This document shows, in pieces, positions 14,928-32,301 of a stretch of DNA of 64,000 bases. The stretch comes from Phycisphaerales bacterium. Lineage in GTDB: Bacteria; Planctomycetota; Phycisphaerae; Phycisphaerales; SM1A02. The position numbers and the translations under genes were made by a program. Where the stretch lies: assembly GCA_009691915.1 (NCBI GenBank), contig SIAD01000001.1, positions 62,001 through 126,000 on the forward strand, given 5' to 3'. Under the pieces are notes generated by a model, which was not told the DNA's origin, ran no database searches, and saw nothing but the letters and a program-made list of their open reading frames with translations. Numbering within the stretch: position 1 is the first letter of the stretch; each line of letters opens with the position of its first letter.

Positions 14928-16238
14928 TCAGACTTCCTCGTGGGCGATGAGATCCGCGTAACTCTCGCGTCTGCGGATTATGGAAATGGTCGAGCCGTCG
15001 ACGAGAACTTCGGCGGGCAGTGGGTGGCTGTTGTATCGGCTCGCCATTGTCATGCCGTATGCGCCCGCAGTGTAGACCGCCAGTAGATCGCCCCGCGTCA
15101 CGCTGGGGAGAAGTCGGTCTTCGGCGATGAAGTCGCCTGTCTCGCAAAGCGGGCCGACGACTTCTGTCCGGACGAGCCCTGGCATCACAAGTTCGCGCGC
15201 GCGCCGAGTAGGGACCAGCGCCTCGCCGGGGGCCACCGGCCAGACGAAGTGAAACGCTCCGTAATGGCTCGGGCGCAAGAGCGAGTGCATTCCCGCATCG
15301 CAGATGGCAAAGGTGCGGTCACCTGACTGCTTCACATACTCGACGCGTGTGAGCAGGATTCCAGCGTTGGCGGCGATAGCGCGACCGGGCTCGAGAACCA
15401 CCTTGAGCGGAGTGCGACCAGCCGGCTGCGAGGGCTGGACCCGCGGCACGAGAAGAGGCAGGATCGCCGTGGCATACTCCGCCGCCACCGGAGACTGGTC
15501 ACTCTCGTAGTCGGCGCCGAATCCTCCGCCAAGATCCAGAGTGTCGATGGCGATCCCCCCAATGGCGAGCCTGTCTATGAGCGCGAGTGCCTTCACGACG
15601 CTCTCGAGGTACGGATCGGTCGTGTAGACAGGGCTACCGATGTGGAGGTGGATCCCGCGCAGGGACACGAGGGGGTCTGCACCGTAGCGGGCAAAGAATG
15701 CCTCGGCACGCTCCAAGTCAACCCCGAACTTGCTCTCGCGCTTTCCAGTGGTCGTATAGCGGTGTGTCTTGGGGTCGACATCGGGGTTCACGCGCAGTGC
15801 AGCGCGGGTACTCACACCCAGTTCTTTCGCGATTCGCGCGAGATTCTCAAACTCCATCTCGCTCTCGACATTGAACAGACCGATCCCCTCCTGAAGTGCG
15901 AGCTTGATCTCCGCGTCGGACTTGCCTACACCCGCGTAGACGATCTTTGATGGGTCGCACCCCGCGCGGCGCGCTCGCAGGAGCTCTCCGCCCGACACGA
16001 CATCCATTCCCGAACCCATCGAGACGAGCAGCCTCAGGATCGAGAGGTTGCTGCAGCACTTCACCGAGAAACACAGGAGGGGGCATGCGGGTGCGAATGC
16101 CTCCGCGAGCCGACGGTAGTGCTGCTCGAAGGTAGCGCGCGAGTACACATAGCAGGGGGTTCCTGCTTTCTTGGCGACTTCCGCCGCGGGGACCCCCTCG
16201 CAGTGGAGGATGCCGCGCCTGTAGTGGAACTCGTCCAT
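14928..16238 (-). CDS. lysA: Diaminopimelate decarboxylase
   Basis: PLP enzyme converting meso-diaminopimelate to L-lysine, the last step of the DAP pathway. The 436-aa protein has fold-type III alanine-racemase-like architecture: PLP Lys in CFSVKCCSN, the glycine loop LDLGGGFGADY, LEPGRAI, and the substrate-binding VGPLCETGD motif of the partner active site, plus a C-terminal Y-x-MxxxYN region (AYGMTMASRYNSHP). The ATG at 16238 gives the conserved MDEFHYRRG start, but it lacks a clear Shine-Dalgarno. It follows the membrane-protein gene by 23 nt. Confidence 0.95.
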   Translation of the reverse strand: MDEFHYRRGILHCEGVPAAEVAKKAGTPCYVYSRATFEQHYRRLAEAFAPACPLLCFSVKCCSNLSILRLLVSMGSGMDVVSGGELLRARRAGCDPSKIVYAGVGKSDAEIKLALQEGIGLFNVESEMEFENLARIAKELGVSTRAALRVNPDVDPKTHRYTTTGKRESKFGVDLERAEAFFARYGADPLVSLRGIHLHIGSPVYTTDPYLESVVKALALIDRLAIGGIAIDTLDLGGGFGADYESDQSPVAAEYATAILPLLVPRVQPSQPAGRTPLKVVLEPGRAIAANAGILLTRVEYVKQSGDRTFAICDAGMHSLLRPSHYGAFHFVWPVAPGEALVPTRRARELVMPGLVRTEVVGPLCETGDFIAEDRLLPSVTRGDLLAVYTAGAYGMTMASRYNSHPLPAEVLVDGSTISIIRRRESYADLIAHEEV

Positions 16239-16261
16239 GGGAGGAGGAAGGGTAGCGATGG

Positions 16262-17068
16262 TCAGTCGCGGCTCTTCGCCGGAACTTCGGCGCGAACCTG
16301 GACACGGCGCATCTGAAACGCCCATCCCGAGAGGGTGACCGCGCCCAGAAGCAGAAGCCACGCTGCCATGGACTCGGGACATCTGTACGCGCCGGTGAGA
16401 TTCTCACCAAGCGGCAGACCGCATCCGACCAGTAGCAGCGCACCTACCGCACTGGACGCTCCGGCAAGCGCCCACCGCGAGAACACGACCCCAAGCCCGA
16501 AGCCGAGGACCGCACCGCCACCTGCCATTGCCAGAAGGAATGTGCGTGTTGCGCCGGGAACGCTTTGCCATCGCGTACGCACTGCTGTCCATGCGCGCCC
16601 ACCGACTCCGGCGAGCGCATTCGGACTTCCTCCCGCCTGCTGGGCCTCGCCCAGCGAGGTGCGCGCCAGTTCGAGAAGTCCGCTGCGCGCGACGCGAACG
16701 GCGCTCGAGGGGTGTTCCGGTGCAGGAGGGGGGCCTCCACCATCTGCCTGAATAGGAGCCGTCGGCGCGATCCCTCGCTCGATCAGCACGCCCCCGAGGA
16801 TGAGACCGAGCGAGAGGCCTGCAACGGCGAACGCGACGGCGACCGCGGGGCGTATGAAAAGTGCGGCAAGGGCGGCTCCAGCTACCGCAGCCGACGCGGC
16901 ACAAAGGGCCGGCGACCACCCCGGGACTAGTGTGTCGTGAAGGATCCCTCCAAGGCACCAGCCAAGCGTTCCACCCGTGAATGCGGCGACGAGTCCGATC
17001 AGTCGTACTCCCGCGATGAGCAGGAAAAACCCGAGCAGGGCTAGAAGGCCTAGGACCGCGTTCGTCAT
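16262..17068 (-). CDS. Multi-pass membrane protein of unknown function (DUF4203/TMEM198-like)
   Basis: A 268-aa hydrophobic protein with about seven predicted helices rich in Gly and Ala. Glycine-rich helices such as LVAAFTGGTLGWCLGG and LSLGLILGGVL resemble DUF4203/TMEM198-type proteins, but the match is by eye and tentative. A polar loop of about 70 residues (Pro/Glu/Ser-rich) sits in the middle. It precedes lysA by 23 nt and is probably in the same transcript. It is divergent from the asparaginase-like gene, with about 43 nt between their starts. Confidence 0.72.
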   Translation of the reverse strand: MTNAVLGLLALLGFFLLIAGVRLIGLVAAFTGGTLGWCLGGILHDTLVPGWSPALCAASAAVAGAALAALFIRPAVAVAFAVAGLSLGLILGGVLIERGIAPTAPIQADGGGPPPAPEHPSSAVRVARSGLLELARTSLGEAQQAGGSPNALAGVGGRAWTAVRTRWQSVPGATRTFLLAMAGGGAVLGFGLGVVFSRWALAGASSAVGALLLVGCGLPLGENLTGAYRCPESMAAWLLLLGAVTLSGWAFQMRRVQVRAEVPAKSRD

Positions 17069-17111
17069 CCAACTGCCTTATCGGTCCGGAGGCTCGATAC
17101 GCTTGCGAGGG

Positions 17112-17657
17112 ATGTTCAGGGTCCTCCTCATCTCAACGGGCGGCACGATCGAAAAGACCTACGACGAATTGGCCGGAGTGCTGGCCAACCATGTCAGTGT
17201 TCTCGATGTGATGCTCGCGTCACTGGAACTGCGGGGCATCGAGATCACACGGCTCGGACTGATGAACAAGGACAGCCTCGAGATGACCGCCGCCGACCAT
17301 GCTCTGATCGCGGACACGGTCGTGGAGCGCGCTGGTGCGTTCGACGGAGTCGTCATTGTGCACGGGACCGATCGGCTGGCTGAGAGCGGTGAGCGGATCC
17401 ACGCCCGGATGACGGCACCAGATGCGCCCAGGCGACCCGTAGTTCTAACCGGCGCCATGCGTCCCTACGAGATGAGGCGAACGGACGCGGTCCAGAATCT
17501 CACGGAGGCATTGACCGCCGTGAAGCTTGTCGGGCCGGGGGTCTATGTCGCGATGCACAACCAGGTGCTTGCGTTTCCGGATGTGCGCAAGGACTCGAAG
17601 GCCGGGACCTTCACGAAGTCTGCTTCGCACGGCGCGCACGCGACTTCGCCGCGGTGA
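17112..17657 (+). CDS. Single-domain asparaginase-like protein
   Basis: A 181-aa protein corresponding to the N-terminal catalytic domain of type I/II L-asparaginases, without the C-terminal domain. All the recognisable catalytic residues are present: ISTGGT (T12), KDS near 53-55, HGTD (T86, D87), TGAMRPYEM, and a downstream Lys in FPDVRKDSKAGTF (K160). The ATG at 17112 starts the core beta strand directly. Full-length asparaginases are about 330 aa and use both domains to build the active site, so its activity and substrate are uncertain. Its last 47 nt overlap the 3' end of the convergent deoxyhypusine-synthase-like gene. Confidence 0.8.
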   Translation: MFRVLLISTGGTIEKTYDELAGVLANHVSVLDVMLASLELRGIEITRLGLMNKDSLEMTAADHALIADTVVERAGAFDGVVIVHGTDRLAESGERIHARMTAPDAPRRPVVLTGAMRPYEMRRTDAVQNLTEALTAVKLVGPGVYVAMHNQVLAFPDVRKDSKAGTFTKSASHGAHATSPR

Positions 17658-18654
17658 CAACTGCCCCGCGGCGTCCCTTCAATCCCATCGTCTCCATCAC
17701 ATAGTGGAACATGAGCGGGGCGACGATAGTCGCGTCGCTCTCGACGATGAAGCGGGGGGTCTTCTTGCCGAGTTTCCCCCAGGTGATCTTTTCGTTGGGA
17801 GTCGCCCCCGAGTATGAGCCATATGAGGTCGTCGAGTCGCTGATCTGGCAGAAGTATCCCCAGAGGGGAATGGATCTCCGCCCGAGATCCTGATGGAGCA
17901 TGGGAACGACGCAGATCGGGAAGTCCCCGGCGATTCCGCCGCCAACCTGAAAGAATCCGACGCTCGATTTGGGCGCATGCCCCGAGTACCACGCGGCGAG
18001 GCTCGTCATGTACTCGATCCCGCTGCGCACGGTGTGGACACTCCTGATTGAGCCATCGATGACATGTGAGGCGAAGATGTTGCCGGTGGTCGAATCCTCC
18101 CACCCCGGGACGACCATCGGAAGGTTCCGCTGCGCCGCAGCGAGGAGCCACGAGTCTTTCGGGTCGATCTGGTAGTGCTTCTTGAGCGCGCCCGAGAGGA
18201 GGATCCGGTAGAAGAACTCATGGGGAAAGTAGCGTTCACCCGAACGGTCGGCGCGGGTCCACTCGTCGAGGATCGCCCGTTCGATGCGGCGGATCGCTTC
18301 CTCCTCCGGGATGCAGGTGTCCGTCACGCGGTTGAGATGTCGGTTCAGCAGCGACTCTTCATCCGCAGGCGTTAGTTGGCGCCAGTCTGGGATCCGCTCG
18401 TAATGGTTGTGCGCGACGAGGTTGTAGACATCCTCCTCGAGGTTCGCCCCGGTGCATGAGATGGCGTGGACGAATCCGCGGCGGATCATCTCCGCGAGTG
18501 AGAGGCCCAGTTCCGCCGTGCTCATCGCCCCCGCCAGCGTGACCATCATCGACCCGCCCTTCTTCAGGTGGGTGGCGTACGCCTCGGACGCCTCGACGGC
18601 CGTGGCCGCGTTGAAGTGGCGGTAGTGGTGTCGCATGAATTCACGGATTGACAT
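17611..18654 (-). CDS. Deoxyhypusine synthase-like polyamine aminobutyltransferase
   Basis: A 347-aa member of the deoxyhypusine synthase family. Since bacteria lack eIF5A, the bacterial relatives probably transfer the aminobutyl group of spermidine to a small amine such as putrescine or agmatine; the acceptor here is unknown. An AGGAG lies 7 nt before the ATG at 18654, which begins MSIREFMRHHY. The NAD-binding and active-site landmarks are SMMVTLAGAMSTAELG, ISCTGANLEEDVYN, PMVVPGWEDSTTGN, GFFQVGGGIAGDFP, and the SYSGATPNEKITWGKL loop, which retains the catalytic Lys of WGK. Confidence 0.88.
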   Translation of the reverse strand: MSIREFMRHHYRHFNAATAVEASEAYATHLKKGGSMMVTLAGAMSTAELGLSLAEMIRRGFVHAISCTGANLEEDVYNLVAHNHYERIPDWRQLTPADEESLLNRHLNRVTDTCIPEEEAIRRIERAILDEWTRADRSGERYFPHEFFYRILLSGALKKHYQIDPKDSWLLAAAQRNLPMVVPGWEDSTTGNIFASHVIDGSIRSVHTVRSGIEYMTSLAAWYSGHAPKSSVGFFQVGGGIAGDFPICVVPMLHQDLGRRSIPLWGYFCQISDSTTSYGSYSGATPNEKITWGKLGKKTPRFIVESDATIVAPLMFHYVMETMGLKGRRGAVVTAAKSRARRAKQTS

Positions 18655-18729
18655 GGGATTCTCCTGATGACGAGCGGCGGTGCATCGTACTTGGCGAGCG
18701 GGCATTCCCGCACGCTACGCGCAGGCACG

Positions 18730-21700
18730 CTAGAGCTTGAGCGCAGCGCCGACTGGCGCGGTCTCAGGACTCTCGCTCGCGGCCGACTCCGACTCATCGA
18801 CTGCGCTCTGGGCGATTCGGCCACCGGCACCAACCTGCTCGAAGCGAACCGAGACGCGCTTGGACACGCCTCGTTGCGGCATCGTCACACCGTGGAGGCG
18901 ATGGCACGCCTGCATGGTGCGCTTATGGTGGGTGATGACGATGAAGTGGCACTCGTTGAGGAAGAGCCCGAGGGAGTTGCAGAACCGTTCGACATTTGAC
19001 TCGTCGAGTGCCGCATCGACCTCGTCGAGGATGCAGAAGGGAGCGGGCTTGCTCTTGAAGATCGCCAGGAGCAGCGCCACGGTGGTCATCGACTTCTCGC
19101 CGCCGGAGAGCTGCGCGATGATCCGAGGCTCTTTCCCTGGAGGTTTTGCCCGGATCTCGATTCCGGACTCCAGCCAGTCAACCGTGCCATCTTCCAGCGG
19201 CAGGAGATACATGTCGGCGCTTCCACCGCCGAACAGCATGCGGAACATCCCATTGGTGCCGCCGAAGTTCTCCCGGACCGAGTTGAATGTCTCCTCGAAC
19301 TGCGTTCGGCTGGTGGCATCAAGCTGCTCGACAAGCGCGAGGAGGTGCACGGTGGCGGAGTCAATGTCAGTCAGTTGGCCCGACAGCTCCTGAGTTCGCG
19401 TTTCGAGCTCCACCAGCTCCGCGAGGGCATCGAGGTTTACATTTCCAAGGGCCTTGATCTCGTCGCGCAGTTGCTCTGCCTCCAGCGAAGCGCTAGTGCG
19501 GTCGGTGAGAACAAATGCCCCGGACTCCCGCTCGGCAAGGTGAGAATCCCAGAGTGTCTCAAGCTCCAACGCCAGTTCTTCACGGGTCTGTGCCACGAGT
19601 GCCTCAAGGCGCATGGCTGCCTCGCGGCGCGCCAGCTCGGCCTCGCTCCACGCGCGTTCGGTCTCTGACGCGCGATCGCGCAATTCGCGCAGGGCTTCGC
19701 CCGCTCGGTCATTGGCGAGGACAGCTGTCGAAAGTGCTTGGGCAAGGTCGGCAATCCGCAGCGCGATAGCGTCGTGCCGTTGCTGCGCCTTCTGGGCAAG
19801 AGCGCGTGCATCCGCGATCGCCTCTTCGAGTGTCTCGACATGCGCTTCCCGCCGGCGCAGGTGATCTTCCGCCGTTGTCCGCTGGCGACGGGACTCCTGC
19901 AACGCCGTCTCGGTCAGGGCCACTTCGCGGCGCGCGGCATTGGCAAGGCTTGCAGACTCGCCGAGCGCAACCCGCGCTGCGGAGAGAGCTTCTTGGGCCG
20001 TTTCGAGGTCGAGTTGCGAGGCCGCCGCGTGATCGCGTGCGGTTGATGCATTCCCGTTCGCGAGTGCGAGTCCCTCCTCCGAGGCTCGGAGCCGTTCGAG
20101 AATAATGGTCTCTTCGTCGCCTGCGGAGACCCCTCGGCGCTCGACATCGGCGAGTTCCATACGCAGCGACTCCTGCTCGCGCTCGATCCGTCGAATGAAC
20201 TGCTCGGCGCGCTCCAATTGAAAGTCGCACTCAATCACCGTGCGGCGCGCGGATTGGAGGGCGAGATCCCGCTCGCGATGCCGATCCCGTGCCGCCTCCC
20301 CGAGCGCGGCGATCCGCGCCGCGTCGGCTTCACACTGCGCGAGTCTCGCATCGGTCGCCTCGATGGTTGCCGCCAGATCCGCGAGCTCCGCCCGTCGGCT
20401 GACGGAGCCACCTGATCCGCCCGTCAGTCGCCCGACAGTGACCGTCCCCAGAGTGCCGACCATTTCGCCTGCCAGGGTTACGAAGGTGGCGCCCTCCATC
20501 GCTGTCTGCGACAGCAGGAGTGCCGCGTCGAGATCGTCGACCAGCCAAGTGTCATTGAGTAGCGCGTGGACAATCCCCTGAGTTGCTTGGGAAGTTCTTA
20601 CACACGCCGTCAGGGGTCGCGCGCGAGTGTCTGGCTCCCGGCGTCCTTGAACTGCGCCCTTCGTGACAATCCCCGGCACGAAGGTGATCCGACCGTCAAG
20701 GGTGGTGGCAGTCGCGAGCAGCGGACCGCTGGCGAGCGGTCCATCGACGACTAGGCATTCGACCCACGCCCCCAGGGCTGCTTCGACGGCAACCGCATGC
20801 AGACGATCCGTTGATACGAAGTCGCCGAGCGCGCCGGTGACACCGGGGTAGTCGACCGAGTTGGCGAGAACCGTCCTGACCGCACCGCCCAGCCCTTCGC
20901 GCGCGCTCTCCATCTCCTCGAGGAGCGCGCGACGGCTTGTGTCCCGTGTCCGCGCGTCGCGTTGTTCGCCGATCCGCTGACTGATGGAGACTCCCTCTTC
21001 GCCGTACGACTCGACGCTGCTCAGTTCGGCAGCAGCTTCTGCCGCAATGGCCTCGGCCCGAGCGCGCGCATCCTGCCGCTTGGCACCCGCCGCGTCACGC
21101 GCCGCAAAGTGCCCTTGAATTTCCTGCTGTTGCGCCCCCTCGCGTGACGCGATCCGCTGCTTCTCCTGAGCGATGGCACCCAGCCGCTCCTCGACGCCGT
21201 GGCGGCGCGCGCCCAGCCGCGAGCGCTCTCGTTCCAGTGCCAAGTGCTCCTCGCGCCAGCGCAGATCCGCATCGCGCGAGGCCGACGCTTCAGCCGCCTT
21301 GGCCGCGCGTTCCTCGGCCGCGGACGCATTTCGCTCTTCGGCGGCAGCTACCGCCTGGCCCGCCTCCTGCATCACACCCACAAGCGACGCCAGTCGGTCT
21401 GCGTGCTGAGCGACCATGAGGTCGAGCGAGCCGATCGCAGCGGCATCCTGCTGAAGTGCCGCGCGGGTCTCTGCAAGCGACTGGTCTGTGAATTCCGCGC
21501 GCTGTTGCGCCTGTTTAACAACCGACGCCGCCTCGAGTCGTTCGCGTTCCAGGTCCTGCTGACGGCGCATGACCTCGTCTCGTTCCGCTTCGCGCAGCCG
21601 CTTGTCGTGCTCGCCATCTTCGAGGGCCTGAACGAGCGTGCTGCGGGCGGCCTCAGCCTCGGCGACCGCGAGAGCGAGTTCGCTCTGTCGTGCGCGGTGC

Positions 21701-22527
21701 TCGTGGTAGGTGTCGAAGGCCAGAGCCGATCGCAGGGCGCGGCGTCGCGCATCGAGTTCGGAGAATCGTCTGGCCTTCTCGGCCTGTGAGCGCACGATTC
21801 GCAGACGGCGTTCTGCGCCCGACAGTTGCTCGCGCAGCACCACGAGATTCTTCTCTGCCAGCTCAAGCTTGCGCGAGGCCTCTTCCTTGCGCGAGCGGAA
21901 CTTGGCGACACCCGCCGCCTCTTCGAGGATGGCTCGACGCTGGGCGGGGTTCGCTTCCAGCAACGCGGCGACCTTGCCCTGTTCGATGATCGAGTAGGCG
22001 TCGGTGCCGACTCCCGTGTCCATGAAGAGTTCCTTGATGTCGCGCAATCGCACCTTGCGGCCGTTGATCACATACTCCGAGCGCCCGTCGCTATAGAGCC
22101 GCCTCGTGACATCGACTTCGTCGGCGTCCACCGGGAGCCTGCGGTGTGCAACCTCTTCGCGGCGGACGATCCGCTCCTCGGGGCCCTCGGGCGGTTCATC
22201 GCACACATCGTCCTGTGAAGAGGCAGTCAGCGTCCCGGTGCTGCGTGTCACCCGCGCGTCGAGGACTGGGTTTTCAAAGACCAGTGAGACGCTCGCGCAG
22301 CCCATTGGTTTGCGCACGGCGCTCCCCGCAAAGATGACATCGACCATCGCGCTGCTTCGAAGGCTCTTGGCGCTGCGCTCTCCCAGAACCCACTTGATGG
22401 CATCTACGACATTGCTCTTGCCGCACCCGTTGGGACCGACGATGCCGATGATCGGCTCGTCGAAACGGAACTCCGTATGGTCCGCGAAGCTCTTGAATCC
22501 GTTCAGAACAAGCTTGGAAAGGCGCAC
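18730..22527 (-). CDS. smc: Chromosome segregation/condensation ATPase SMC
   Basis: Core ATPase of the bacterial condensin. The 1265-aa protein has the full SMC layout: N-terminal head with [14 protein letters not shown] (Walker A), about 350 residues of coiled coil, a hinge near residues 530-680 (VTGALGDFV through [12 protein letters not shown]), the returning coiled coil, and a C-terminal head with [14 protein letters not shown] (signature) and [13 protein letters not shown] (Walker B/D-loop). The GTG at 22527 was chosen because AGGAGG lies 5 nt upstream and the product begins [14 protein letters not shown]; a TTG six codons earlier is not needed. scpA/scpB are not in the window. Confidence 0.96.
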
Positions 22528-22597
22528 TCCGACCTCCTGTCGCAACTCGCGAACTTCCGTCCGTCCGTGGACGGTTGCCTAGCACTGGGCATCGGCA

Positions 22598-24460
22598 TTA
22601 TCGGGGCACAGTATCGCGTTTTGGTGTCTGGGGCGCAAGAGGGCCGGTGGCGGGTGGTGTTGCACTCGAGTTTGGAGTGAGGCCGGGGACGACGGCGTTC
22701 GCGGATCCCGGCGAGCCCGCCGACAGCTGCTGCTCGTCTTCGATGAAGTCTGGTCGCTCGGACCGTTCTTCTTCTTCACCGGCCTTGGCAATGGCCGCGA
22801 CCAAGCGATCCTGTTCGATCTTGAAGGCGGCGGGAAGGTCACCCCCGACGAACAGGGCGTGAAGGGCTCCGACCGTCTGGCTGAAGGTGAGTCCGATCCC
22901 CGGGGCGGGATGGGCCGGATCCATCGAATGCCCTAGGAATCTCGTGAGTTCCGCGGCATTGATACTCACCTTGTCGATGAGGGCGGGGGACCCCTTGGCG
23001 GGGCGATAGAAGACCTCGACGGTGTCGCTGAAGGCATCTGCCTTGAACATCAGGTCGCCGTCCCAAGTGCGAAGCGTAAGTGGGACGGTGAGCTTTAGAT
23101 CCTCTCCAAAGACCGCAATCGCTGGGTCCCCGGTCTGCGATATGTAGACCATCGGGTAGGAGCTGGGGATGGAGTCGATCCTGAACTTCTTGCCCACCAT
23201 CTGGGACTGGACGATCGGATCCTCCCGCTCCCTAAGGACTTCGTATGCGGCCAGTCTGACATCGACATCCGAGTCGTTTAGGAGGGGTCGGATTCCGAGG
23301 TCGATCACCGGATTGATGGGCATCCGCCGCAGCAATTTGATGGCGGGCACCCTTAGTTCGGAGCTCCCGGATCTCGCCAGGTCCAGAAGGTGCGGGACGA
23401 CGGTTGCGTCCTCAAGTTGCGCTCCTGCCTGCAACGCACTGAAACGCGGTTGTTCTTCCGGGTAGTCATAGAGGGGACGCATCGCGGAGAGACTCTTCTT
23501 GCCTAGTGCCTCCCACCGGAGGCTGGCGGCGTTGGCAGCTCCGGGATTGTTGATGACCGCCTTGGCAATCGCCGCCGCCGTCGAGTCGATAGGGCCGACA
23601 TTGATGGAGGTGTGGCGAAGGAGATTCACAAAGTGTTCGGAGCGATCATGCCAGGAGGGCGGCACGGCGACCTGGATCGCGTCGCCGGACATCCCCTGCG
23701 CGGTCTCGCCGCGCTGTCGTTGTTCGCGCGGATAGTTCGAGTTGATCGCGCTGACGATCAATCGCGCGCGGGAGTGGCTGGGCGTCGCCATGACCAGTCG
23801 AATGGGCAGGTCCCGATCACAGCTGCCTCCTCCGATGACGCGCCCGCTGAGCCGATTGACATTGGCCGACGCGGATCCGTCGGCGTCGGAGAACGGATTG
23901 ATGAGGATCGGGCCCTTGGCCTTGGCCATCCCGCGGGCCTCACGACTCCCAACCAGCAAGGCGCCCGGGCGCAGCTCGGTTTGCCAGAGGGAACCGCCCT
24001 CGAGGCTTGTGGTCGCGGTGCCGGGGGCCGCATAGACACGCACATCGAACTCCGTGCCCTTGGGGGCTCCCGCGGGCACGATCCCCTCGACGATCACAAT
24101 GGCGGTGGTCTCGGAATTGAGCAGACCCTCCGGTGACAGCCCCGCAAAGGAAGAGTTCGGTTCTCCGACTCCCGCGCGGCCGAGTTCCTTGAGGATGTAC
24201 TGACGCACCTCCGCCGGCGCCGTCTTGCTTCCTGTCCCCTTGAGCCCGCCGACCAGACCGTATCCGCGCACGACGACAGACTTGTAGCCGGTCACCACCA
24301 TCTCACTCGCCACCGTCCCCCGCATGATGGGGTCGACATCCATGGGAATGGATGGGCGAGTGGCCCGCGAGGGCCTGTCCTTGGGATCCGCTCGCTCGAT
24401 ATTCGAGCAGCCAGACACAAGTGAGCTGGCGAGGAGAATGTGGGGAATACAAAATCTCAT
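22598..24460 (-). CDS. FlgI (P-ring)-like lipoprotein with HEAT-like repeats
   Basis: A 620-aa lipoprotein: signal peptide with SLVSGC lipobox (Cys near residue 18), then a segment homologous to the N-terminal part of the flagellar P-ring protein FlgI (VRGYGLVGGLKGTG near 63, TAIVIVEGIVPAGAPKGT, DVRVYAAPGT, SLEGGSLWQTEL). This is followed by helical repeats resembling HEAT repeats around residues 310-430 (LARSGSSELRVPAIKLLRR, LLNDSDVDVRLAAYEVLRE) and a Pro/Ser/Glu-rich tail. No other flagellar gene is present. It is probably a periplasmic or outer-membrane scaffold rather than a true P-ring; its partner is unknown. Confidence 0.8.
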   Translation of the reverse strand: MRFCIPHILLASSLVSGCSNIERADPKDRPSRATRPSIPMDVDPIMRGTVASEMVVTGYKSVVVRGYGLVGGLKGTGSKTAPAEVRQYILKELGRAGVGEPNSSFAGLSPEGLLNSETTAIVIVEGIVPAGAPKGTEFDVRVYAAPGTATTSLEGGSLWQTELRPGALLVGSREARGMAKAKGPILINPFSDADGSASANVNRLSGRVIGGGSCDRDLPIRLVMATPSHSRARLIVSAINSNYPREQRQRGETAQGMSGDAIQVAVPPSWHDRSEHFVNLLRHTSINVGPIDSTAAAIAKAVINNPGAANAASLRWEALGKKSLSAMRPLYDYPEEQPRFSALQAGAQLEDATVVPHLLDLARSGSSELRVPAIKLLRRMPINPVIDLGIRPLLNDSDVDVRLAAYEVLREREDPIVQSQMVGKKFRIDSIPSSYPMVYISQTGDPAIAVFGEDLKLTVPLTLRTWDGDLMFKADAFSDTVEVFYRPAKGSPALIDKVSINAAELTRFLGHSMDPAHPAPGIGLTFSQTVGALHALFVGGDLPAAFKIEQDRLVAAIAKAGEEEERSERPDFIEDEQQLSAGSPGSANAVVPGLTPNSSATPPATGPLAPQTPKRDTVPR

Positions 24461-24478
24461 TGGGTGAGTCGTTCGAAG

Positions 24479-24551
24479 TGAGCGCTGCAGGATTTGAACC
24501 TGCGACATCTGCCATGTAAAGGCAGCGCTCTAGCCGCTGAGCTAAGCGCCC
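24479..24551 (-). tRNA. tRNA-Val (anticodon TAC)
   Basis: A cloverleaf reads leftward: acceptor GGGCGCT with AGCGCTC (one G-T wobble), discriminator A, D-arm AGCTCAGCGGCTAGAGC, anticodon stem CTGCC/GGCAG with loop TTTACAT (anticodon TAC), and T-loop GGTTCAAATCC. The 3' CCA is not encoded. A TATGCT box lies about 10 nt upstream of the 5' end. Confidence 0.96.
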
Positions 24552-24613: not shown

Positions 24614-27600
24614 GTGGGTCTCCTTGATTCTGTGCGAATCCCCGCCGAGTTACCGATCTTCACGCACGCGCAGGAGATCGTGGCCGCGATCGAATCGCAC
24701 CCGGTCGTGATCGTGCAGGGGGAGACCGGGTGCGGCAAGACGACACAGCTTCCAAAACTCTGCCTTCAGGCGGGACGGGCGACCACGGGGATGATCGCTC
24801 TCACGCAGCCTCGGCGCATCGCGGCCCGTGCCGTCTGCCGGCGGATTGCGGAGGAACTTGCTGTCGAGAGCGGCGGGGTCGTCGCCTATCAGGTGCGCTT
24901 TGACGACCGCACGACCAGCGCAACGCGGATCAAGGTCGTGACTGACGGGATCCTGCTCGCGCAGATCCGAACCGACCGTCTTCTCTCGCGTTATGACACC
25001 GTGATCATCGACGAAGCGCACGAACGCTCACTGAACATCGATTTCCTGCTCGGGTGTCTCGTCAGGATTCTGAGACGCCGGTCGGATCTCAGAGTGGTGA
25101 TCGCCAGCGCGACCATCGACTCCCAGCGGTTCTCGCGGCACTTCGGCGACGCCCCGGTCATCGAGATTCCGGGCAGGGCGCATCCCGTGGAAGTTCGCTA
25201 TGCCCCGGTGGGGCGAGACGATTCGGGGGAGCCGGACATGATCCGAGCGATCTCCGACGCGGTCGTCGAACGCCTGAAGGGGCAGGATGGTGATGGTCTC
25301 GTGTTTCTTGCCGGGGAGCGCGAGATCCGCGATGCCCAGACCGCGCTTCAAGGTCGACTGGGGGAGTCGGTGGAGGCGGTGCCGCTCTACTCGCGGCTGA
25401 GCGGGCCCGAACAGGATCGCGCGCTCTCGGGGAGTGGTCGTCGCCGAGTGGTGCTGGCGACCAATATCGCGGAGACCTCTCTCACTGTGCCGCGCGTCCG
25501 ATTCGTCATCGACACCGGGAATGCCCGCGTGCTGCGTTACAGCACTAAGTCGCGGATCCAGCGCATTCCGATCGAACGGATCTCGCGCGCGTCGGCAGCC
25601 CAGCGCGCCGGGCGGTGCGGTCGCATCGCCCCTGGGGTCTGCATCCGTCTCTACTCCGAACAGGAGTTCGCCGACTTCCCCCAGTGGCCGCAGCCGGAGA
25701 TTCAGCGCGTGAGCCTGGCGAGCGTGATCCTGCAGATGTCCTCGATCGGCCTTGGTGCAGTCGCCTCGTTCCCGTTTCTTGACCCTCCCTCGCCAAGAGC
25801 AATCGAAGAAGGGCAGGCGACGCTCGTCGAACTCGGCGCGTTCACAAGTTCCTCTCGTTTGACCCGCGAAGGCGCAATGATGGCCCGTCTGCCGGTCGAC
25901 CCGCGGCTCTCGCGCGTCCTGCTTGAATCGGTCCGAGCACACTGCCTCCCGGAAGCACTGGTGATTGCCTCGGCGCTCTCGTCGATTGACCCGCGCGAAC
26001 GACCCGCCGCGAAGGCCACCGAGGCCGACATCGCGCACCAGCAGTGGCGTGACACCAGTTCCGATGCAGCGAGCATCCTTCGGCTCTGGTTCGCATGGCG
26101 CAAAGCGCGCGAAGATCTTGGTTCAAGCGCACTGAAGCGATGGTGCCGGGAGCGATTCGTCTCTGAGGGCCGTCTTCGAGAGTGGGAAGAGATCCATAGG
26201 CAACTTGTCCGGCTCGTCGACGGAGGATGGGAATCGGCCCGGGCGTTGGTCGGCACACCTGCGCGGGAAGGTGCTCCACTCGAGCCGCTGCACCGCTCGA
26301 TCATGACCGGATTCGTGTCGAGTGTCGCACAGCGCACCGAAGAGGGGGACTATCTGCTGGCGACCGGACACCGTTTCTCACTGCACCCCTCCTCGGCTCT
26401 CGCACGGGGTGCTGCCCGTTGGATCGTTGCGGCGGAGATTGTCGATACTGGGCGGCGTGTCGGTCGCACCGCGGTACGAATTCATCCGGACTGGCTCGGT
26501 CAGGTCGCGCCGCACCTGCTTACGCGGTCCATCTCAGAGCCTCACTGGGTGGAAACCTCCGGGCAGGCGGCCGCGTGGGAGCGGACTACGCTGGGTGCAC
26601 TGGTCGTTTCCCCGCGGCGGCGCGTGCCCCTAGGACCGATCAATCCGGCCGCGGCGCGGCAACTTTTCATACAGGGGGCGTTGGTCGAAGAGTGCGTTCC
26701 TGGAGTCATCCCGCCGTTCATGGAACGCAATCGAAGGCTGCGAGCAGGACTCGAACAGGAAGAAGCCCGAAAGCGGCGCACGCTGATTGGAGATGATCTT
26801 GCGCGCTACTCGTTCTTCGACGCGCGCATCCCAGAGGAGATCCACTCCTGGCCATCGTTCATCCGCTGGCTGGACTCTAGCAAGGGGAGCATCCCGCGCA
26901 CACTTGAGATGCAGCGCATGGATCTTCTGCGCGACCCGTCGGATCAATCCGAGTCTGCCGCCGAAGGCCTCCTCATGATTGCCGGCAGACCTCGCGATGT
27001 CGCGTACATCCACCGACCTGGCGACATCCGTGATGGCGCTTCCATCCGTGTTGCACTCGAGGCCGCATCGCTTCTTGACGAGCGCGCGATCTCATGGGGA
27101 GTCCCGGGCTCGCTCGCTCAGTTCTGCGAGGGCATGATCCGCTCCCTCCCTCGCCACATCCGCCAACGGTTGATTCCAGCGAGGGAAGTCGCCGAGGGAG
27201 CTGCGGAACGGCTCGCGGATCGCGAGGGGTCCTTCGCGACGAGACTGGCTGAGCAGCTGAACTCCATCGCCCAGACTCGCGTGACCGCCGCCGACTTCGA
27301 CCTTGCTCGGGTCGAACCTCACCTTCGGATCCTCGTCGAAGTTGTCGATTCAACGGGCGCGATCATTGACTCCGATCGCGATGTCCGAGCTCTCGTCGCG
27401 CGGATCAGAGACCGCTCCCTTCGCGCCTTCGCGGCACTTGCGGCATCCTTTGGCGACAGGTATGAGCGGCGCGCGGTCGAACAGTGGACCAATACCAGTC
27501 TCCCCAACGAGATTGCCGAGCAGATCCCGGCGCCGGAAGACTGTCCGGTGGCGGTGGTCTATCCAGCCTTGGTCGATGCGCGACGCGGTGCCGATGGACC

Positions 27601-28435
27601 GTTGCACCTGCGCTGCTTTTCCGATGAACTCTCCGCAACGCTTGCGATGCGCGGAGGCGTCGTCGCCCTCCTCTCGCGGTCGATAGCGCGGGCCGTGATC
27701 CATCACGCCCACTACCACCCGAAATGGGAGGAGATCTGTTCACTCGCGTCTGTATCCGGCATCCCTCACACGGAACTCCTTGAGGATCTCCCCGATGCGG
27801 TCGCGATCGACTTCGTTGATCGGCTAGAAGTGCTTCCGCGGTCACAGGAAGCGATGGAGCACACAGATGCCTCTATCGGCGAGGGACTGTGGGATCGTTC
27901 GGGCGCGTGCCTCGAACGCGTGCATCAGTGCCTCAGTGCGCTCGCCGTGGTGCGTGGCGTTGACCGACGGACGCTAGCGGTGGGATCAGCCAGTGCGCGC
28001 TCGTTTGTGACGACCCACGCACCGAGGTCGGTGTCATCCGAAACCGTTCAGCGGGTCTTGGAGCGCGCCCAGAAGATCTTTCCCCCGCACGCGCTGGCTT
28101 CGCTCAGTGCGACCCAGCTCGCGCGCGCCCCGCGGCGGCTCGAGGCGCTCGCTTCTCGGATGCGCAAGGTGGTGACCAAGGGCGAGGGGTGGGAGGAGTC
28201 GCTCGCCGCTCAGTTCGCCCCGTGGGAGGTGCGCGTCGCCCTGGCGCGTGAGCGCGCCGTGACACGCGATGGGTGGGCTCGTGCCGTCGAATTCGCCGAT
28301 CTCGTCGAGGAGTTCGCCGTTGCGTTGTGGGCGCAGGAGCTGGGGACGATTCACCCCGTCTCAGAGCAGCGCCTCGAGCCGCTGGCCCGTCAGCTGAATG
28401 TCTGGGAGATCCAGCCGTCGTCGGGCCATGCGTAG
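24614..28435 (+). CDS. hrpA: ATP-dependent RNA helicase HrpA (DEAH box)
   Basis: DEAH-box RNA helicase of the HrpA type, implicated in mRNA processing and ribosome rescue in E. coli. The 1273-aa length matches HrpA. Motifs in order are GETGCGKTTQ (I), TQPRRIAARAV (Ia), IDEAHERS (II), SATID (III), TNIAETSLT (V), and QRAGRCGRI (VI). The ratchet/OB region and the long C-terminal HrpA-specific domain (DUF3418-like) follow, with YHPKWEEICSLA. It starts at a GTG with little Shine-Dalgarno. Its last 46 nt overlap the 3' end of the convergent FtsK-like gene. Confidence 0.94.
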   Translation: MGLLDSVRIPAELPIFTHAQEIVAAIESHPVVIVQGETGCGKTTQLPKLCLQAGRATTGMIALTQPRRIAARAVCRRIAEELAVESGGVVAYQVRFDDRTTSATRIKVVTDGILLAQIRTDRLLSRYDTVIIDEAHERSLNIDFLLGCLVRILRRRSDLRVVIASATIDSQRFSRHFGDAPVIEIPGRAHPVEVRYAPVGRDDSGEPDMIRAISDAVVERLKGQDGDGLVFLAGEREIRDAQTALQGRLGESVEAVPLYSRLSGPEQDRALSGSGRRRVVLATNIAETSLTVPRVRFVIDTGNARVLRYSTKSRIQRIPIERISRASAAQRAGRCGRIAPGVCIRLYSEQEFADFPQWPQPEIQRVSLASVILQMSSIGLGAVASFPFLDPPSPRAIEEGQATLVELGAFTSSSRLTREGAMMARLPVDPRLSRVLLESVRAHCLPEALVIASALSSIDPRERPAAKATEADIAHQQWRDTSSDAASILRLWFAWRKAREDLGSSALKRWCRERFVSEGRLREWEEIHRQLVRLVDGGWESARALVGTPAREGAPLEPLHRSIMTGFVSSVAQRTEEGDYLLATGHRFSLHPSSALARGAARWIVAAEIVDTGRRVGRTAVRIHPDWLGQVAPHLLTRSISEPHWVETSGQAAAWERTTLGALVVSPRRRVPLGPINPAAARQLFIQGALVEECVPGVIPPFMERNRRLRAGLEQEEARKRRTLIGDDLARYSFFDARIPEEIHSWPSFIRWLDSSKGSIPRTLEMQRMDLLRDPSDQSESAAEGLLMIAGRPRDVAYIHRPGDIRDGASIRVALEAASLLDERAISWGVPGSLAQFCEGMIRSLPRHIRQRLIPAREVAEGAAERLADREGSFATRLAEQLNSIAQTRVTAADFDLARVEPHLRILVEVVDSTGAIIDSDRDVRALVARIRDRSLRAFAALAASFGDRYERRAVEQWTNTSLPNEIAEQIPAPEDCPVAVVYPALVDARRGADGPLHLRCFSDELSATLAMRGGVVALLSRSIARAVIHHAHYHPKWEEICSLASVSGIPHTELLEDLPDAVAIDFVDRLEVLPRSQEAMEHTDASIGEGLWDRSGACLERVHQCLSALAVVRGVDRRTLAVGSASARSFVTTHAPRSVSSETVQRVLERAQKIFPPHALASLSATQLARAPRRLEALASRMRKVVTKGEGWEESLAAQFAPWEVRVALARERAVTRDGWARAVEFADLVEEFAVALWAQELGTIHPVSEQRLEPLARQLNVWEIQPSSGHA

Positions 28436-31400
28436 GGGCGGAATTTCTCCTGGACTCCCGTCTCTTCGCTGTGCAAGAGAGCCCGCATGGGTCCGAGGCG
28501 GCTGGCCACTGGTGAGTCGATGAGTGTGCTCGAGTCGGTCGCGCTGATCTGGAAGAGCACGCGCCACTCGAACTCGCGGATCGCGTTGCGATCGAAGGAC
28601 CGCGCAAGGTTGGTGGCACCGTCGCAGGTGACCTGCACATGGATCCCCAGGGGCGGTCCGTCCTTCAATAGTGCTCCTAGCAATTTGTCGGCAGTCGGTG
28701 GGGCATCGGAGGTGCTCGACGAGAACGAGTAGTCATCCTCGTTGCGTCTCAGTGCACGGAACCTGTGGAGTGCGTGGACGAGCACCAGCCAGGTCGGATC
28801 CGTAGTTGAGTGTGCCTGCTGTCGCCGCACCGACTCGTGAGTTGCCGCGGCGAGGATCGCTTCTGCGTCGCGGTGGCCGCCGGTCATGGCATCAAGGCCC
28901 AGCGCCGAGACCAACGCCGCAAGTCTGCCGAAATCCGGGGAGTCCGGAGGAGTTCCATCCAGGAGAAGGATCCGGCACCGACCCTTGGGAAACCGGGCCG
29001 CGAGCGAGACCATCGCCGAGGCAGAGAGCGCCAACGCGGCATCTTCGCGCTGGCCGATGACCATGACATTCGCTCCCGTCTGGCGCGAGAGCACCACAGA
29101 GGTTGGGTCCTTGATCGAGATGGCATCGCCGAGCCAGAGCCGAGTGGGTTCCGGCAATGCTGGAAGTTCGCGGCGGCTGCGCGCGGCCATCATCAGGCGG
29201 TTCGCGTGCATGTGCGCGGGAGCGTTCCCCTCGAACACGATCATTGTCGGTCGGCGCACGGGAGGCGTCGCAATCTGTTGCCTCCGTACTCGCGCGAGCA
29301 TGCGGTCTCGTTCCTCGTCGGGGAGCCAGACCACCTGGAACGGATTGTTCCCTTCGATCAGTCCGCCCGAGTCGTTGTAGATCGCGTCGCCGGGGCGCGA
29401 GAGGAGCCGACCCGCGAGATTGTCATCCGAGAGAATGAGTTGTGAGTCCGCCTCGTTGCACTGGAGCGCGACTCGCACCGCCATCTGCCCCATCGTCGCG
29501 CGTGCGATCGAGTAGGCACCACCCAGCGTCTGCGATCCGAGGATCACATGCATCCCGAAGGCGCGTCCCTGGCGCACGAGGCGATCGAGCAGGAGCGCCG
29601 ACTCTTCCGAGACCTTGTCATCTTCCGTGAAGAGCTCCTGAAACTCATCAATGATGAGGAGCGTGCGCGGGATGATCTCCGCAGCCTTGCTGCGACGGTA
29701 TCCCGCGAGATCCTGAACTCCCTGGGCACGAAAGACCTCGCCGCGTCGGCGAAGTTCCGCGTCAAGACCCCGAAGGACGGAGAGACCGAACTCGCGGTCG
29801 CTCTCGATCGCCACCACGCGCGCGTGGGGAAGGGCGTTGGTCGCATAGGTCCGGAATTCGACCCCCTTCTTGAAGTCGATCAGCCAGAGTTCGGCTTCGT
29901 CGGGACTGAAGCGCAGCGCAAGGTTGGTGATCAGGGCGTGGAAGAGCGTTGACTTGCCCGAGCCGGTCTTGCCTGCGATCAGGGCGTGCTGGCTCGTCCC
30001 GGTCCCGAGGTGTATGGCCTGGAGTCTCGTCGCTCCCGAACGCCCGATGGGCACGGTGATTCCTTCGGCGGTCGACTCTGTCCAGACGGCCGAGTCCTCA
30101 GGAGCGATCGAGGCAAACGGGACCTCGACTCGCTTCGACGCCCGTGCAGCCGCGCCGATGCGCCGAAGCAGGGCGATCGTCTCGTCTCGTGATGGCGCGG
30201 GGGCTGTGGAGAGCGGGAATCGTCCGAGCCACTCGTGATCGACCCAGAAGTGTCCATCGCGCCATGCGAGGTGGAGTCCTCCCGCGCGCATCTCGGCTTC
30301 GGTGAGCGGCGCTGGAATGGACTCCGCCACATCGCGCAGGATGAGGGTGAACACACCGCAGCGAGGCCCGCTGTTGATGACACTCGCCAGATGCCTCGCG
30401 GCAACTTCGGAGATGTTTGCCGGAAAGTCGCACAGCACCAGAAACCGATAGGGCTCGGCAATCTCTCCTGCCTGCCGGTTGTACTCGTCGAGCGACGCGT
30501 ATTCGTTCCTCAGGAACTTCTGGATGACAGTCTCCATGTGTTGGCACAGGTCGCCGAGGCGCTGTTCGATGTGCCGCGCATCCGTCCAGATTCGTTCGCC
30601 GATGAGGTGTTCCGCATCATCGGTCAGATGCATAAATGCCGCGAATCCCTCGCCGAGGCCGATGGGATCGGCGATGGTGAACCGCGCCAGGCCAGGCGGG
30701 ATCGCCACCAGTATCCGCAGCATCGCCTCCTGCAGGACGGCGAGTCCCGCCGCGCGTCCGTCGCGCGGAGCATCGATGAAGAGTGAGGCGTCGCGCGGCA
30801 AGCTCAGAACAACGGGGAGATGGAAGAGCCGCGCGGCGCCCGCGGGCCATGCCAACTCCGGCTCCGTCGGCAACGCTCCGGGAATCTCGCGGAGATTCAC
30901 GGTGACCGCCCCCACTTTGGCGGCGCCAGTGAGTGCGGCGCGTCCCAGGAAAGTTCGCCAGGCGGGGTCAGACCAGCGTGCGAAGAGACTCTGGTCGATC
31001 GCGAGGAGGGCTTGTGTGTCGTCGACGATCTGGCGCTGGCCGCGATGCCATGCGTCGCGAAGCGCCGTGAGGTGAGTCTGTTCGACACGGGTGATCTCAT
31101 TGAGTCTCGATTCGTGCCGTCGTGATTCGGCCATAGAGCCGCTGTTGTGCGCCGCATGGGCGGTGGCGCATTCCTGCGTGCATCGGGTCTCCGCCGCTTC
31201 GCAGGCGAGGTCGTGCTGCGCCTTGGCACTGGTGCGCAGCGTTCCGGCGTTCTCCGACATCAACTGGATCTTCCTTGCGTAGAGCAGTTCGATCTCTTTC
31301 GCCGCTGGATCTATGGAGTGGCGGGCAGCCGCCCGGTCGCGTGTGTGCTGCGCGCGATACTCCGCTTGCAGCGAGGCGCGGCGGGTTTCCGCCTGCGACA

Positions 31401-32301
31401 AAGCGCGCTTTGAGATCACCGACGCGATGGCCCTTGCCCCGGAGAGGGGCTGGGCGATCCTCGACAAACGGGAGCCCGCCCAGACCCAGCCGACTGAGAG
31501 GACTACGAGTGCCACGAGAGCGCCTGCGCCAAGACTGACGGCGACCTCGTTCGTCTCTCGGCTCCACAGAAACCATCCCGCGATTCCCGAGAGTGCGGTG
31601 ATGGTTACGAACGCGGTCGCGTGCACCAGTCCGACGCGGAGCAGCCGTGCCACCATCTGTCGACGAAGTGCTGCGTTGACCGCTTCGACGAGTCGACCCT
31701 GCTCGGCGAGTGCTGCCTGTGGATCGGCATCGACGGATTCTGGAAGATCCTCGCGGACCGACTCGCCGATCGGGCAGGCCACGCGCGCGCGCGCCAGTAG
31801 GTCAAGGGCTTCACTGACCTGCCTTGTTACAACCGCGGTCCCTTCGTCAGTGGCCTTCTTGAACGCCTCGAACTGCGCGCTGGGGACCGGCTCCATCGAC
31901 TCGTACATCGTGTCGGCCGTCCAGGTCTGCTCATCCGACCGCGCCTGCACCTTCTCGACGAGGTTCAGCCGCTCGAGGTCAGTCGCCTGCCGCGCCGCCT
32001 TCTCGCTCGTCCCGATTCTCTCCCGTTGCCGTCCCAATCGCATGTCCGCTTCAGCCCTCACACTCTCCAACCCCGCGCGCGCAATGGCGAGCGACCCTTC
32101 AAGGGTCAGGGCGATCGCACGCATCCGGTCCGCGTGGAGCGCAGCCTCCGGTTCGCGCGCGTGCTTTGAGAGCGTGCGCAAGGCTTCCTCGGCCTCTAGG
32201 CGGCTCTTCGGCGCAGAGAGCACCGTGCAGCAGAGCCGCCGGCCTAGTGCCGCCGCCAGCGATCCTGGCAGATCGGCAGGAAGTGAATCGGATCCGGACA
32301 C
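28390..32301 (-). CDS. FtsK/SpoIIIE-type ATPase, EccC/EssC-like, of a putative type VII-like system
   Basis: A 1303-aa membrane ATPase. An N-terminal helical region (about 1-215) precedes two transmembrane helices (about 222-280), a coiled-coil region, and three ATPase-like blocks. Block 0 (about 520-680) lacks a P-loop but has IADPIGLG and a Walker-B-like RFLVLCDFP. Block 1 (about 755-1010) is intact: AGKTGSGKST near 773 and LLIIDEFQE near 880, with the FtsK-type GSQTLGG. Block 2 (about 1057-1303) has a degenerate P-loop (VIGQREDAAL) and ILLLDGTPP. Three tandem FtsK-like ATPases behind two TM helices is the layout of type VII secretion ATPases EccC/EssC, and a WXG100-like gene sits three genes upstream. 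A GTG start at 32301 was used. Whether it moves protein or DNA is inferred, with protein preferred. Confidence 0.82.
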   Translation of the reverse strand: MSGSDSLPADLPGSLAAALGRRLCCTVLSAPKSRLEAEEALRTLSKHAREPEAALHADRMRAIALTLEGSLAIARAGLESVRAEADMRLGRQRERIGTSEKAARQATDLERLNLVEKVQARSDEQTWTADTMYESMEPVPSAQFEAFKKATDEGTAVVTRQVSEALDLLARARVACPIGESVREDLPESVDADPQAALAEQGRLVEAVNAALRRQMVARLLRVGLVHATAFVTITALSGIAGWFLWSRETNEVAVSLGAGALVALVVLSVGWVWAGSRLSRIAQPLSGARAIASVISKRALSQAETRRASLQAEYRAQHTRDRAAARHSIDPAAKEIELLYARKIQLMSENAGTLRTSAKAQHDLACEAAETRCTQECATAHAAHNSGSMAESRRHESRLNEITRVEQTHLTALRDAWHRGQRQIVDDTQALLAIDQSLFARWSDPAWRTFLGRAALTGAAKVGAVTVNLREIPGALPTEPELAWPAGAARLFHLPVVLSLPRDASLFIDAPRDGRAAGLAVLQEAMLRILVAIPPGLARFTIADPIGLGEGFAAFMHLTDDAEHLIGERIWTDARHIEQRLGDLCQHMETVIQKFLRNEYASLDEYNRQAGEIAEPYRFLVLCDFPANISEVAARHLASVINSGPRCGVFTLILRDVAESIPAPLTEAEMRAGGLHLAWRDGHFWVDHEWLGRFPLSTAPAPSRDETIALLRRIGAAARASKRVEVPFASIAPEDSAVWTESTAEGITVPIGRSGATRLQAIHLGTGTSQHALIAGKTGSGKSTLFHALITNLALRFSPDEAELWLIDFKKGVEFRTYATNALPHARVVAIESDREFGLSVLRGLDAELRRRGEVFRAQGVQDLAGYRRSKAAEIIPRTLLIIDEFQELFTEDDKVSEESALLLDRLVRQGRAFGMHVILGSQTLGGAYSIARATMGQMAVRVALQCNEADSQLILSDDNLAGRLLSRPGDAIYNDSGGLIEGNNPFQVVWLPDEERDRMLARVRRQQIATPPVRRPTMIVFEGNAPAHMHANRLMMAARSRRELPALPEPTRLWLGDAISIKDPTSVVLSRQTGANVMVIGQREDAALALSASAMVSLAARFPKGRCRILLLDGTPPDSPDFGRLAALVSALGLDAMTGGHRDAEAILAAATHESVRRQQAHSTTDPTWLVLVHALHRFRALRRNEDDYSFSSSTSDAPPTADKLLGALLKDGPPLGIHVQVTCDGATNLARSFDRNAIREFEWRVLFQISATDSSTLIDSPVASRLGPMRALLHSEETGVQEKFRPYAWPDDGWISQTFS

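Follow-up and report, generated by a model that had tools for sequence, protein, structure and literature searches.

A FlgI-related predicted lipoprotein with an inserted HEAT module, encoded beside smc and kept in planctomycete genomes without the tested flagellar markers

The flagellar P-ring protein FlgI (PF02119) is divided into IRU (residues 12-159), OR (1-11 and 160-230) and IRL (231-346) domains in the accessible part of PMC8298488. FlgH, of the L-ring, is called a lipoprotein in the accessible part of PMC1586193. HEAT_2 repeat proteins (PF13646) form helical solenoids. Here we describe a gene from a Phycisphaerales bacterium (contig SIAD01000001.1; the window, meaning the whole stretch of DNA analysed, spans 64,000 nucleotides) whose product, termed here the FlgI-HEAT protein, resembles each of these in part. 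With FlgI it shares a homologous N-terminal IRU/OR part, a glycine core and a similar C-terminal part. It differs in having a lipobox, a HEAT insert of about 120 residues, and an extra C-terminal helix and tail, and also in its changed rod-facing residues, in the presence of smc rather than FlgH alongside, and in being kept without the tested flagellar markers. With HEAT_2 proteins it shares a helical solenoid, modelled with about eight helices, but here the solenoid is an insert within a FlgI-related, predicted exported protein. With FlgH it shares, by prediction, only the lipoprotein character; no sequence relation between the two was found, and the genome in question has no FlgH match. The FlgI-HEAT protein is most likely a flagellum-independent FlgI paralogue with a non-flagellar job. 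Searches of the literature, with most subscription papers outside their coverage, returned no paper describing it, and phage records gave no match to it. P-ring genes in planctomycetes have been remarked on, in the portion of PMC1586193 available without a distinction between FlgI-HEAT and flagellar proteins.

We surveyed 61 genomes, namely the one containing the window and 60 relatives. The FlgI-HEAT protein was present in 60 of them, the sole miss being a genome of 74% completeness (G028). Matches to FlgH, FlhA and FlgA were all absent from 23 genomes (all 19 searched members of the genus, together with G019, G023, G035 and G048), and every one of the 23 encodes FlgI-HEAT. FlgH was found in 34 genomes, 33 of which encode FlgI-HEAT as well. 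Because the protein is kept in all the marker-less genomes, the P-ring fold appears to have been reused outside the flagellum. Such reuse had been proposed in a preliminary description of this DNA, and the retention among both marker-less and FlgH-bearing genomes supports it well; that the product builds another envelope structure, as was also proposed, we infer only, and its lipid anchor is predicted. In the window's own genome (2.27 Mb, 95.9% complete), a single FlgI match was detected, and a whole-genome search for FlgH, FlhA, FlgA and Flg_bbr_C (rod/hook), which did not extend to motor, flagellin or other flagellar families, returned nothing. The preliminary description had noted the lack of flagellar genes nearby, and for these four families this holds genome-wide. 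It had also named, as a finding that would refute it, a complete flagellar regulon elsewhere in a genome devoid of any other flgI; this was not found, the genome having one FlgI match and none to the four markers. Four further genomes (G021, G022, G026 and G036) contained FlhA while FlgH and FlgA were not found, and all four carry FlgI-HEAT. These may be incomplete bins or represent flagella without FlgH and FlgA.

In an unrooted tree of 82 N-terminal domains, which included 41 FlgI-HEAT and 31 flagellar FlgI rows as well as a few long divergent ones, the 41 FlgI-HEAT rows formed one group apart from flagellar FlgI (support 93/97; 94% of 200 bootstrap trees). Homology to FlgI could also be explained by a leftover or alternative P-ring protein of the flagellum. 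This is highly improbable and was rejected, given the coexistence with FlgH in 33 genomes, the retention without flagellar markers, the separate tree group, the lipobox, the HEAT insert and the presence of smc rather than FlgH alongside. As for other FlgI variants, two proteins interrupted by an insertion of roughly 80 residues (L226 874-2304 and L227 49-1374) fell into the flagellar FlgI group. Family f32 has another FlgI-like protein, 605 aa long (L216 6142-7959), which is not located beside smc and has no lipobox by our scan rule.

Across the phylum, 392 genomes were searched with a threshold of 190 bits, and counts were taken from the matches listed. At least 190 bits were reached in 81 genomes, 41 belonging to the class of the window's genome and 40 to six other families (27 of them to f32). 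The 41 are every genome of the class among the matches listed, with 56 unmatched genomes standing outside that list, so that misses within the class are possible. A truncated member was present in family f39 (L253), and many matches under 190 bits lay in frames of 350-450 aa resembling ordinary FlgI. Eighty named loci were mostly from bins labelled Phycisphaerales, Phycisphaerae, Planctomycetaceae or Planctomycetota, and some bore uncultured or odd labels; several isolate names among them suggest lakes or the sea.

Residues are numbered throughout from the longer open reading frame (ORF), which begins at ATG 24508 and encodes 636 aa; the true start corresponds to residue 17. Because ATG 24508 falls within a tRNA-Val gene, the start codon is ATG 24460, just as the preliminary description had placed it. 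A tRNA gene lies upstream of the FlgI-HEAT gene in 17 of 76 scanned loci, some of which are duplicates. The gene and its parts are as follows.

22598..24460, minus strand: FlgI-HEAT lipoprotein gene (Pfam; start fixed by the tRNA)
24478..24551, minus strand: tRNA-Val (tac), immediately upstream of the FlgI-HEAT gene, fixing its start codon
24407..24460, minus strand: predicted signal peptide and lipobox MRFCIPHILLASSLVSG/C (Cys34), from a rule-based lipobox scan
23573..24319, minus strand: FlgI part, equivalent to the IRU and OR domains of FlgI, residues 64-312 (Pfam; hhalign E 6e-41; Foldseek)
23204..23572, minus strand: HEAT solenoid insert, residues about 313-435, with helices from about 307 (HEAT_2; model)
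22814..23203, minus strand: part after the HEAT insert, related to the C-terminal (IRL) region of FlgI, residues 436-565 (hhalign versus shuffles; G113)
22601..22813, minus strand: additional helix EQDRLVAAI, with the RPDF motif and a tail that ends in VPR, residues 566-636 (model to residue 600)

The P-ring assignment of the preliminary description was confirmed by a Pfam match to PF02119 at residues 72-304 (E 1.5e-21; 77.2 bits against a cut-off of 25.3). The NCBIfam FlgI models scored far under their cut-offs (62.5 of 300 and 26 of 557). HEAT_2 was weak in the window protein, at residues 371-431 (E 3.5e-4; 21.2 bits, under the cut-off of 27.7). When 38 family members were scanned, FlgI was detected in all 38 and HEAT_2, at E 0.01 or better, in 37, the best E being 1.1e-11. 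An AlphaFold2 model built from 45 sequences and covering residues 34-600 (mean pLDDT 83.0; pTM 0.75) displayed a FlgI-like part, then about eight HEAT helices, then a beta-rich C-terminal part. Residues 64-304 (31-271 of the model) were closest to P-ring chains (Foldseek 7cbl_a, E 4.7e-14), with Z scores of 15.4-15.9 to four such chains over 193-203 residues and of 8.0 in the next row. The HEAT part reached Z 8.0 at most to HEAT-like repeat proteins. At the other end of the model, residues 583-600 were of low confidence. The tail, called disordered in the preliminary description, is modelled to residue 600.

The sequence alignment to FlgI of the Salmonella LP ring (7bgl) stops at residue 312, which equals precursor position 254 and position 235 in 9iyc_A numbering. 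Since IRL comprises residues 231-346, the HEAT insert begins approximately where this domain starts. The length of the insert is nearly constant, 120-164 residues with a median of 122 in 129 rows. The part following it aligned with the FlgI C-terminal region with an hhalign score of 25.9 on match columns, which none of 100 column shuffles reached (maximum 13.0); the reversed profile scored 7.2 and the HEAT module 5.4. In a distant member, G113, Pfam FlgI matched at 4-218 and, weakly, at 299-341 (20 bits, E 3.1e-4) within a single reading frame. Computation therefore shows homology to FlgI on the N-terminal side of the HEAT insert and, less strongly, on its C-terminal side, and the IRL region of the window protein is not contiguous with the rest, being interrupted by the insert. 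The preliminary description was right about the HEAT-like repeats but had them only following the P-ring part. As the FlgI-related C-terminus resumes beyond them (hhalign, G113), fusion of HEAT to the end of FlgI was replaced by insertion of the module inside it.

The window protein carries the lipobox VSG-Cys34 after a short hydrophobic stretch, as judged by sequence rule, and the alignment column of Cys34 is a cysteine in 127 of 129 rows. As a prediction, then, the lipoprotein claim of the preliminary description holds. In four sets of FlgI-HEAT members, the last two overlapping the first, a lipobox was detected in 19/20, 24/26, 76/80 and 30/30, against 4/30 for flagellar FlgI. The rule behind these counts had been widened after inspection of misses, a narrower earlier one having given 34/46. 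Among the misses are L129 and L134, whose cysteine is too near the start for the rule, and L046, L127 and L145, which have long and apparently false N-terminal extensions; L102 and L104 had no lipobox by the scan rule. From the sequence features, lipidation and an outer-membrane location can be inferred.

We also compared rod-contact positions, in E. coli FlgI numbering, between 129 FlgI-HEAT rows and 30 planctomycete flagellar FlgI. Position 63 is K/R in 7/129 FlgI-HEAT rows versus 15/30 flagellar ones; at position 95, T or S was found in 119/129 FlgI-HEAT rows and K/R in 13/30 flagellar ones. Glycines 19, 21, 30, 99 and 100 are retained in 124 to 129 of the 129 rows. In Salmonella, according to the accessible part of PMC8298488, the lysines at these two positions point towards the rod, and efficient P-ring assembly requires them. 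With the glycines kept and positions 63 and 95 mostly non-basic, the core of the fold seems retained and the rod-binding surface mostly lost.

The gene next to FlgI-HEAT is smc, on which the preliminary description is silent.

18730..22527, minus strand: smc, next gene downstream of FlgI-HEAT after a gap of 70 nt, with SMC_N and SMC_hinge

The smc start given here is a GTG behind AGGAGG chosen by us, the listed ORF beginning at 22545. Adjacency was scored when both genes were on the same strand with a gap of -600 to 1200 nt, and the order and phylum loci were hand-picked from match lists. By this rule, smc was next downstream in 17/20 order loci and 24/26 phylum loci (7/7 within the class, 17/19 outside it), in 79/80 loci of the contig set (one being too short to tell) and in 30/30 genus/family loci, where the 80-locus and 30-locus sets overlap each other and the 20-locus order set. 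In 53 stretches, the FlgI-HEAT and smc families each occurred in 48 and the next most frequent family in 7; in five loci, the FlgI-HEAT frame was overlooked in ORF picking. The 4 kb or so surrounding each of 30 flagellar FlgI genes included FlgH in 30/30 and smc in 0/30. The pairing with smc is new here; the other neighbours change between loci. In other planctomycete families, divergent FlgI-like genes adjoined smc in 5 of 12 stretches, with 2 of the 12 too short to tell. One of these smc-linked genes, L225, encodes two FlgI stretches and a lipobox but gave no HEAT match, and the link to smc may therefore predate the HEAT insert.

In the reverse view, starting from smc, 60 regions were chosen from 133 SMC-hinge genomes, mostly one per family. 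This view is weighted towards non-carriers, the known paired families (the class, f32, f73 and f53) having been omitted except for G041; several regions end at contig ends, and ORFs were picked greedily by length, so that upstream genes were possibly misread (L286 is apparently in a wrong frame). An SMC ORF was present in 55/60 regions, and a FlgI-like gene lay upstream in three (L253, L287 and L290). Among the 60 regions (L234-L293), sixteen others, mostly from other planctomycete families, shared a related gene that was the first, second or third upstream of smc; all three of these genes that were tested contained ATP-cone, and two of them NRDD as well. From this, it can be concluded that the pairing of FlgI-like genes with smc is clade-limited and not phylum-wide.

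The linkage might represent mere transcriptional convenience, a shared promoter with no functional tie, which would fit a ring-forming protein as well as one forming no ring. We consider the chances of this even. FlgI-HEAT and SMC are predicted to reside in separate compartments, different genes precede smc in other planctomycete families (for example ATP-cone/NrdD-like ones), and some FlgI-HEAT members are unlinked to smc; on the other hand, no third family approaches the 48 of 53 stretches in which each of the two occurs, and the divergent FlgI-like genes adjoin smc too. A scan for promoters and terminators yielded nothing clearly over shuffles (0 promoters versus a mean of 0.4, 3 terminators versus 1.7). 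Eukaryotic condensin and cohesin have HEAT subunits, and HEAT repeats encoded beside smc could suggest a cytoplasmic subunit of the SMC complex; yeast condensin (7q2x_D, Z 7.1) was indeed among the many HEAT matches. That Z does not exceed those of designed repeat proteins also matched, the conserved lipobox cysteine argues for export, and the flanking parts are related to a periplasmic protein. A cytoplasmic SMC subunit is thus disfavoured, to the point of being scarcely credible.

Our preferred explanation is that FlgI-HEAT is an exported, lipidated protein held at the outer membrane, forming a P-ring-like oligomer with HEAT docking arms, to which we would assign a probability of roughly 0.6. 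A FlgI gene would have duplicated in the ancestor of the planctomycete groups carrying FlgI-HEAT, its copy later acquiring the lipobox and the HEAT parts. The exported product is probably lipidated and anchored at the outer membrane. By analogy with FlgI, it would probably self-assemble into a periplasmic ring or arc, from which the HEAT modules could serve as docking arms for a partner. FlgI-HEAT and smc would constitute a two-gene unit, presumably co-transcribed, and joint production with SMC would link FlgI-HEAT to chromosome segregation or growth.

Several points weigh against this explanation. Ring formation is proposed by analogy with FlgI. The root-mean-square deviation to the four P-ring chains is high (8.6-8.8), and subdomains may therefore be set differently. 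The own probability given by hhalign to the C-terminal FlgI match is just 36-55%. A separate model of the C-terminal domain (pLDDT 86.8) gave no match in fold searches (Foldseek E no better than 0.47, Z at most 3.2), which neither supports nor excludes a relation to FlgI. The grouping of the 31 flagellar FlgI rows has weaker tree support (69/88). Planctomycete flagellar FlgI are themselves basic at positions 63 and 95 in just half and 13/30 of cases, respectively, and since the lysines vary there too, the rod-contact argument is weaker than it seems. The P-ring chaperone FlgA had no match in 27/61 genomes, all 27 carrying FlgI-HEAT, which would therefore assemble there without FlgA. With regard to smc, it was not seen near L046, L054, L093 and L104 (the last with a contig end 2.2 kb on), and in L048 it lay 2.8 kb on with one gene between; moreover, gene neighbourhood does not prove shared function.

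An alternative is a periplasmic lipoprotein with a FlgI fold that forms no ring and acts singly or in small oligomers; it could be a tether between outer membrane and peptidoglycan, for example, or an assembly factor using its HEAT surface. The changed rod-facing residues, a HEAT insert altering the inner-ring domain, and the 27 genomes in which neither FlgH nor FlgA was found are in keeping with it. The glycine core, however, shows about the same degree of conservation as that of flagellar FlgI, and P-ring structures contain multiples of 26 chains. We regard such a ringless protein as possible, with the P-ring-like oligomer preferred.

The gene order might point to a tie to chromosome segregation, growth or division. 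FtsZ_C had no match in any of the 61 genomes, and missing FtsZ is expected for the planctomycete phylum according to the accessible part of PMC4910669. Given this lack of a match, a role of FlgI-HEAT in segregation or division is attractive, though unproven. In its most extended form, the proposal is that a duplicated P-ring protein became a lipid-anchored envelope ring acting with SMC in segregation or division of FtsZ-less planctomycetes. This we consider unlikely; if true, it would mean a new flagellum-derived component of the division or segregation machinery. Apart from that, the family clearly exemplifies the reuse of a flagellar ring protein outside the flagellum, being kept across several planctomycete families and also where the tested flagellar markers are missing. 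Gene order links it to smc in bacteria with no detectable FtsZ and a poorly understood division. FlgI-HEAT is thereby a single testable candidate for an undescribed envelope structure. It also calls for caution, as a FlgI match alone is no proof of motility.

Minor observations concern the end of the protein and the surroundings of the gene pair. The VPR ending (window 22601-22610) was present in 75/80 named loci but in 2/20 order loci, and is possibly a family-specific C-terminal signal. A few kb from smc, the window encodes an HrpA-type helicase with DUF3418 (24614-28435, plus strand) and an FtsK/SpoIIIE-domain protein (28390-32301, minus strand). The helicase cluster recurred in 7/53 stretches, all of them FlgI-HEAT loci near the window's own family, while neighbours differ elsewhere. 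After smc, arginine decarboxylase-like and deoxyhypusine synthase-like genes (14928-18705, minus strand) follow and possibly form a polyamine pair.
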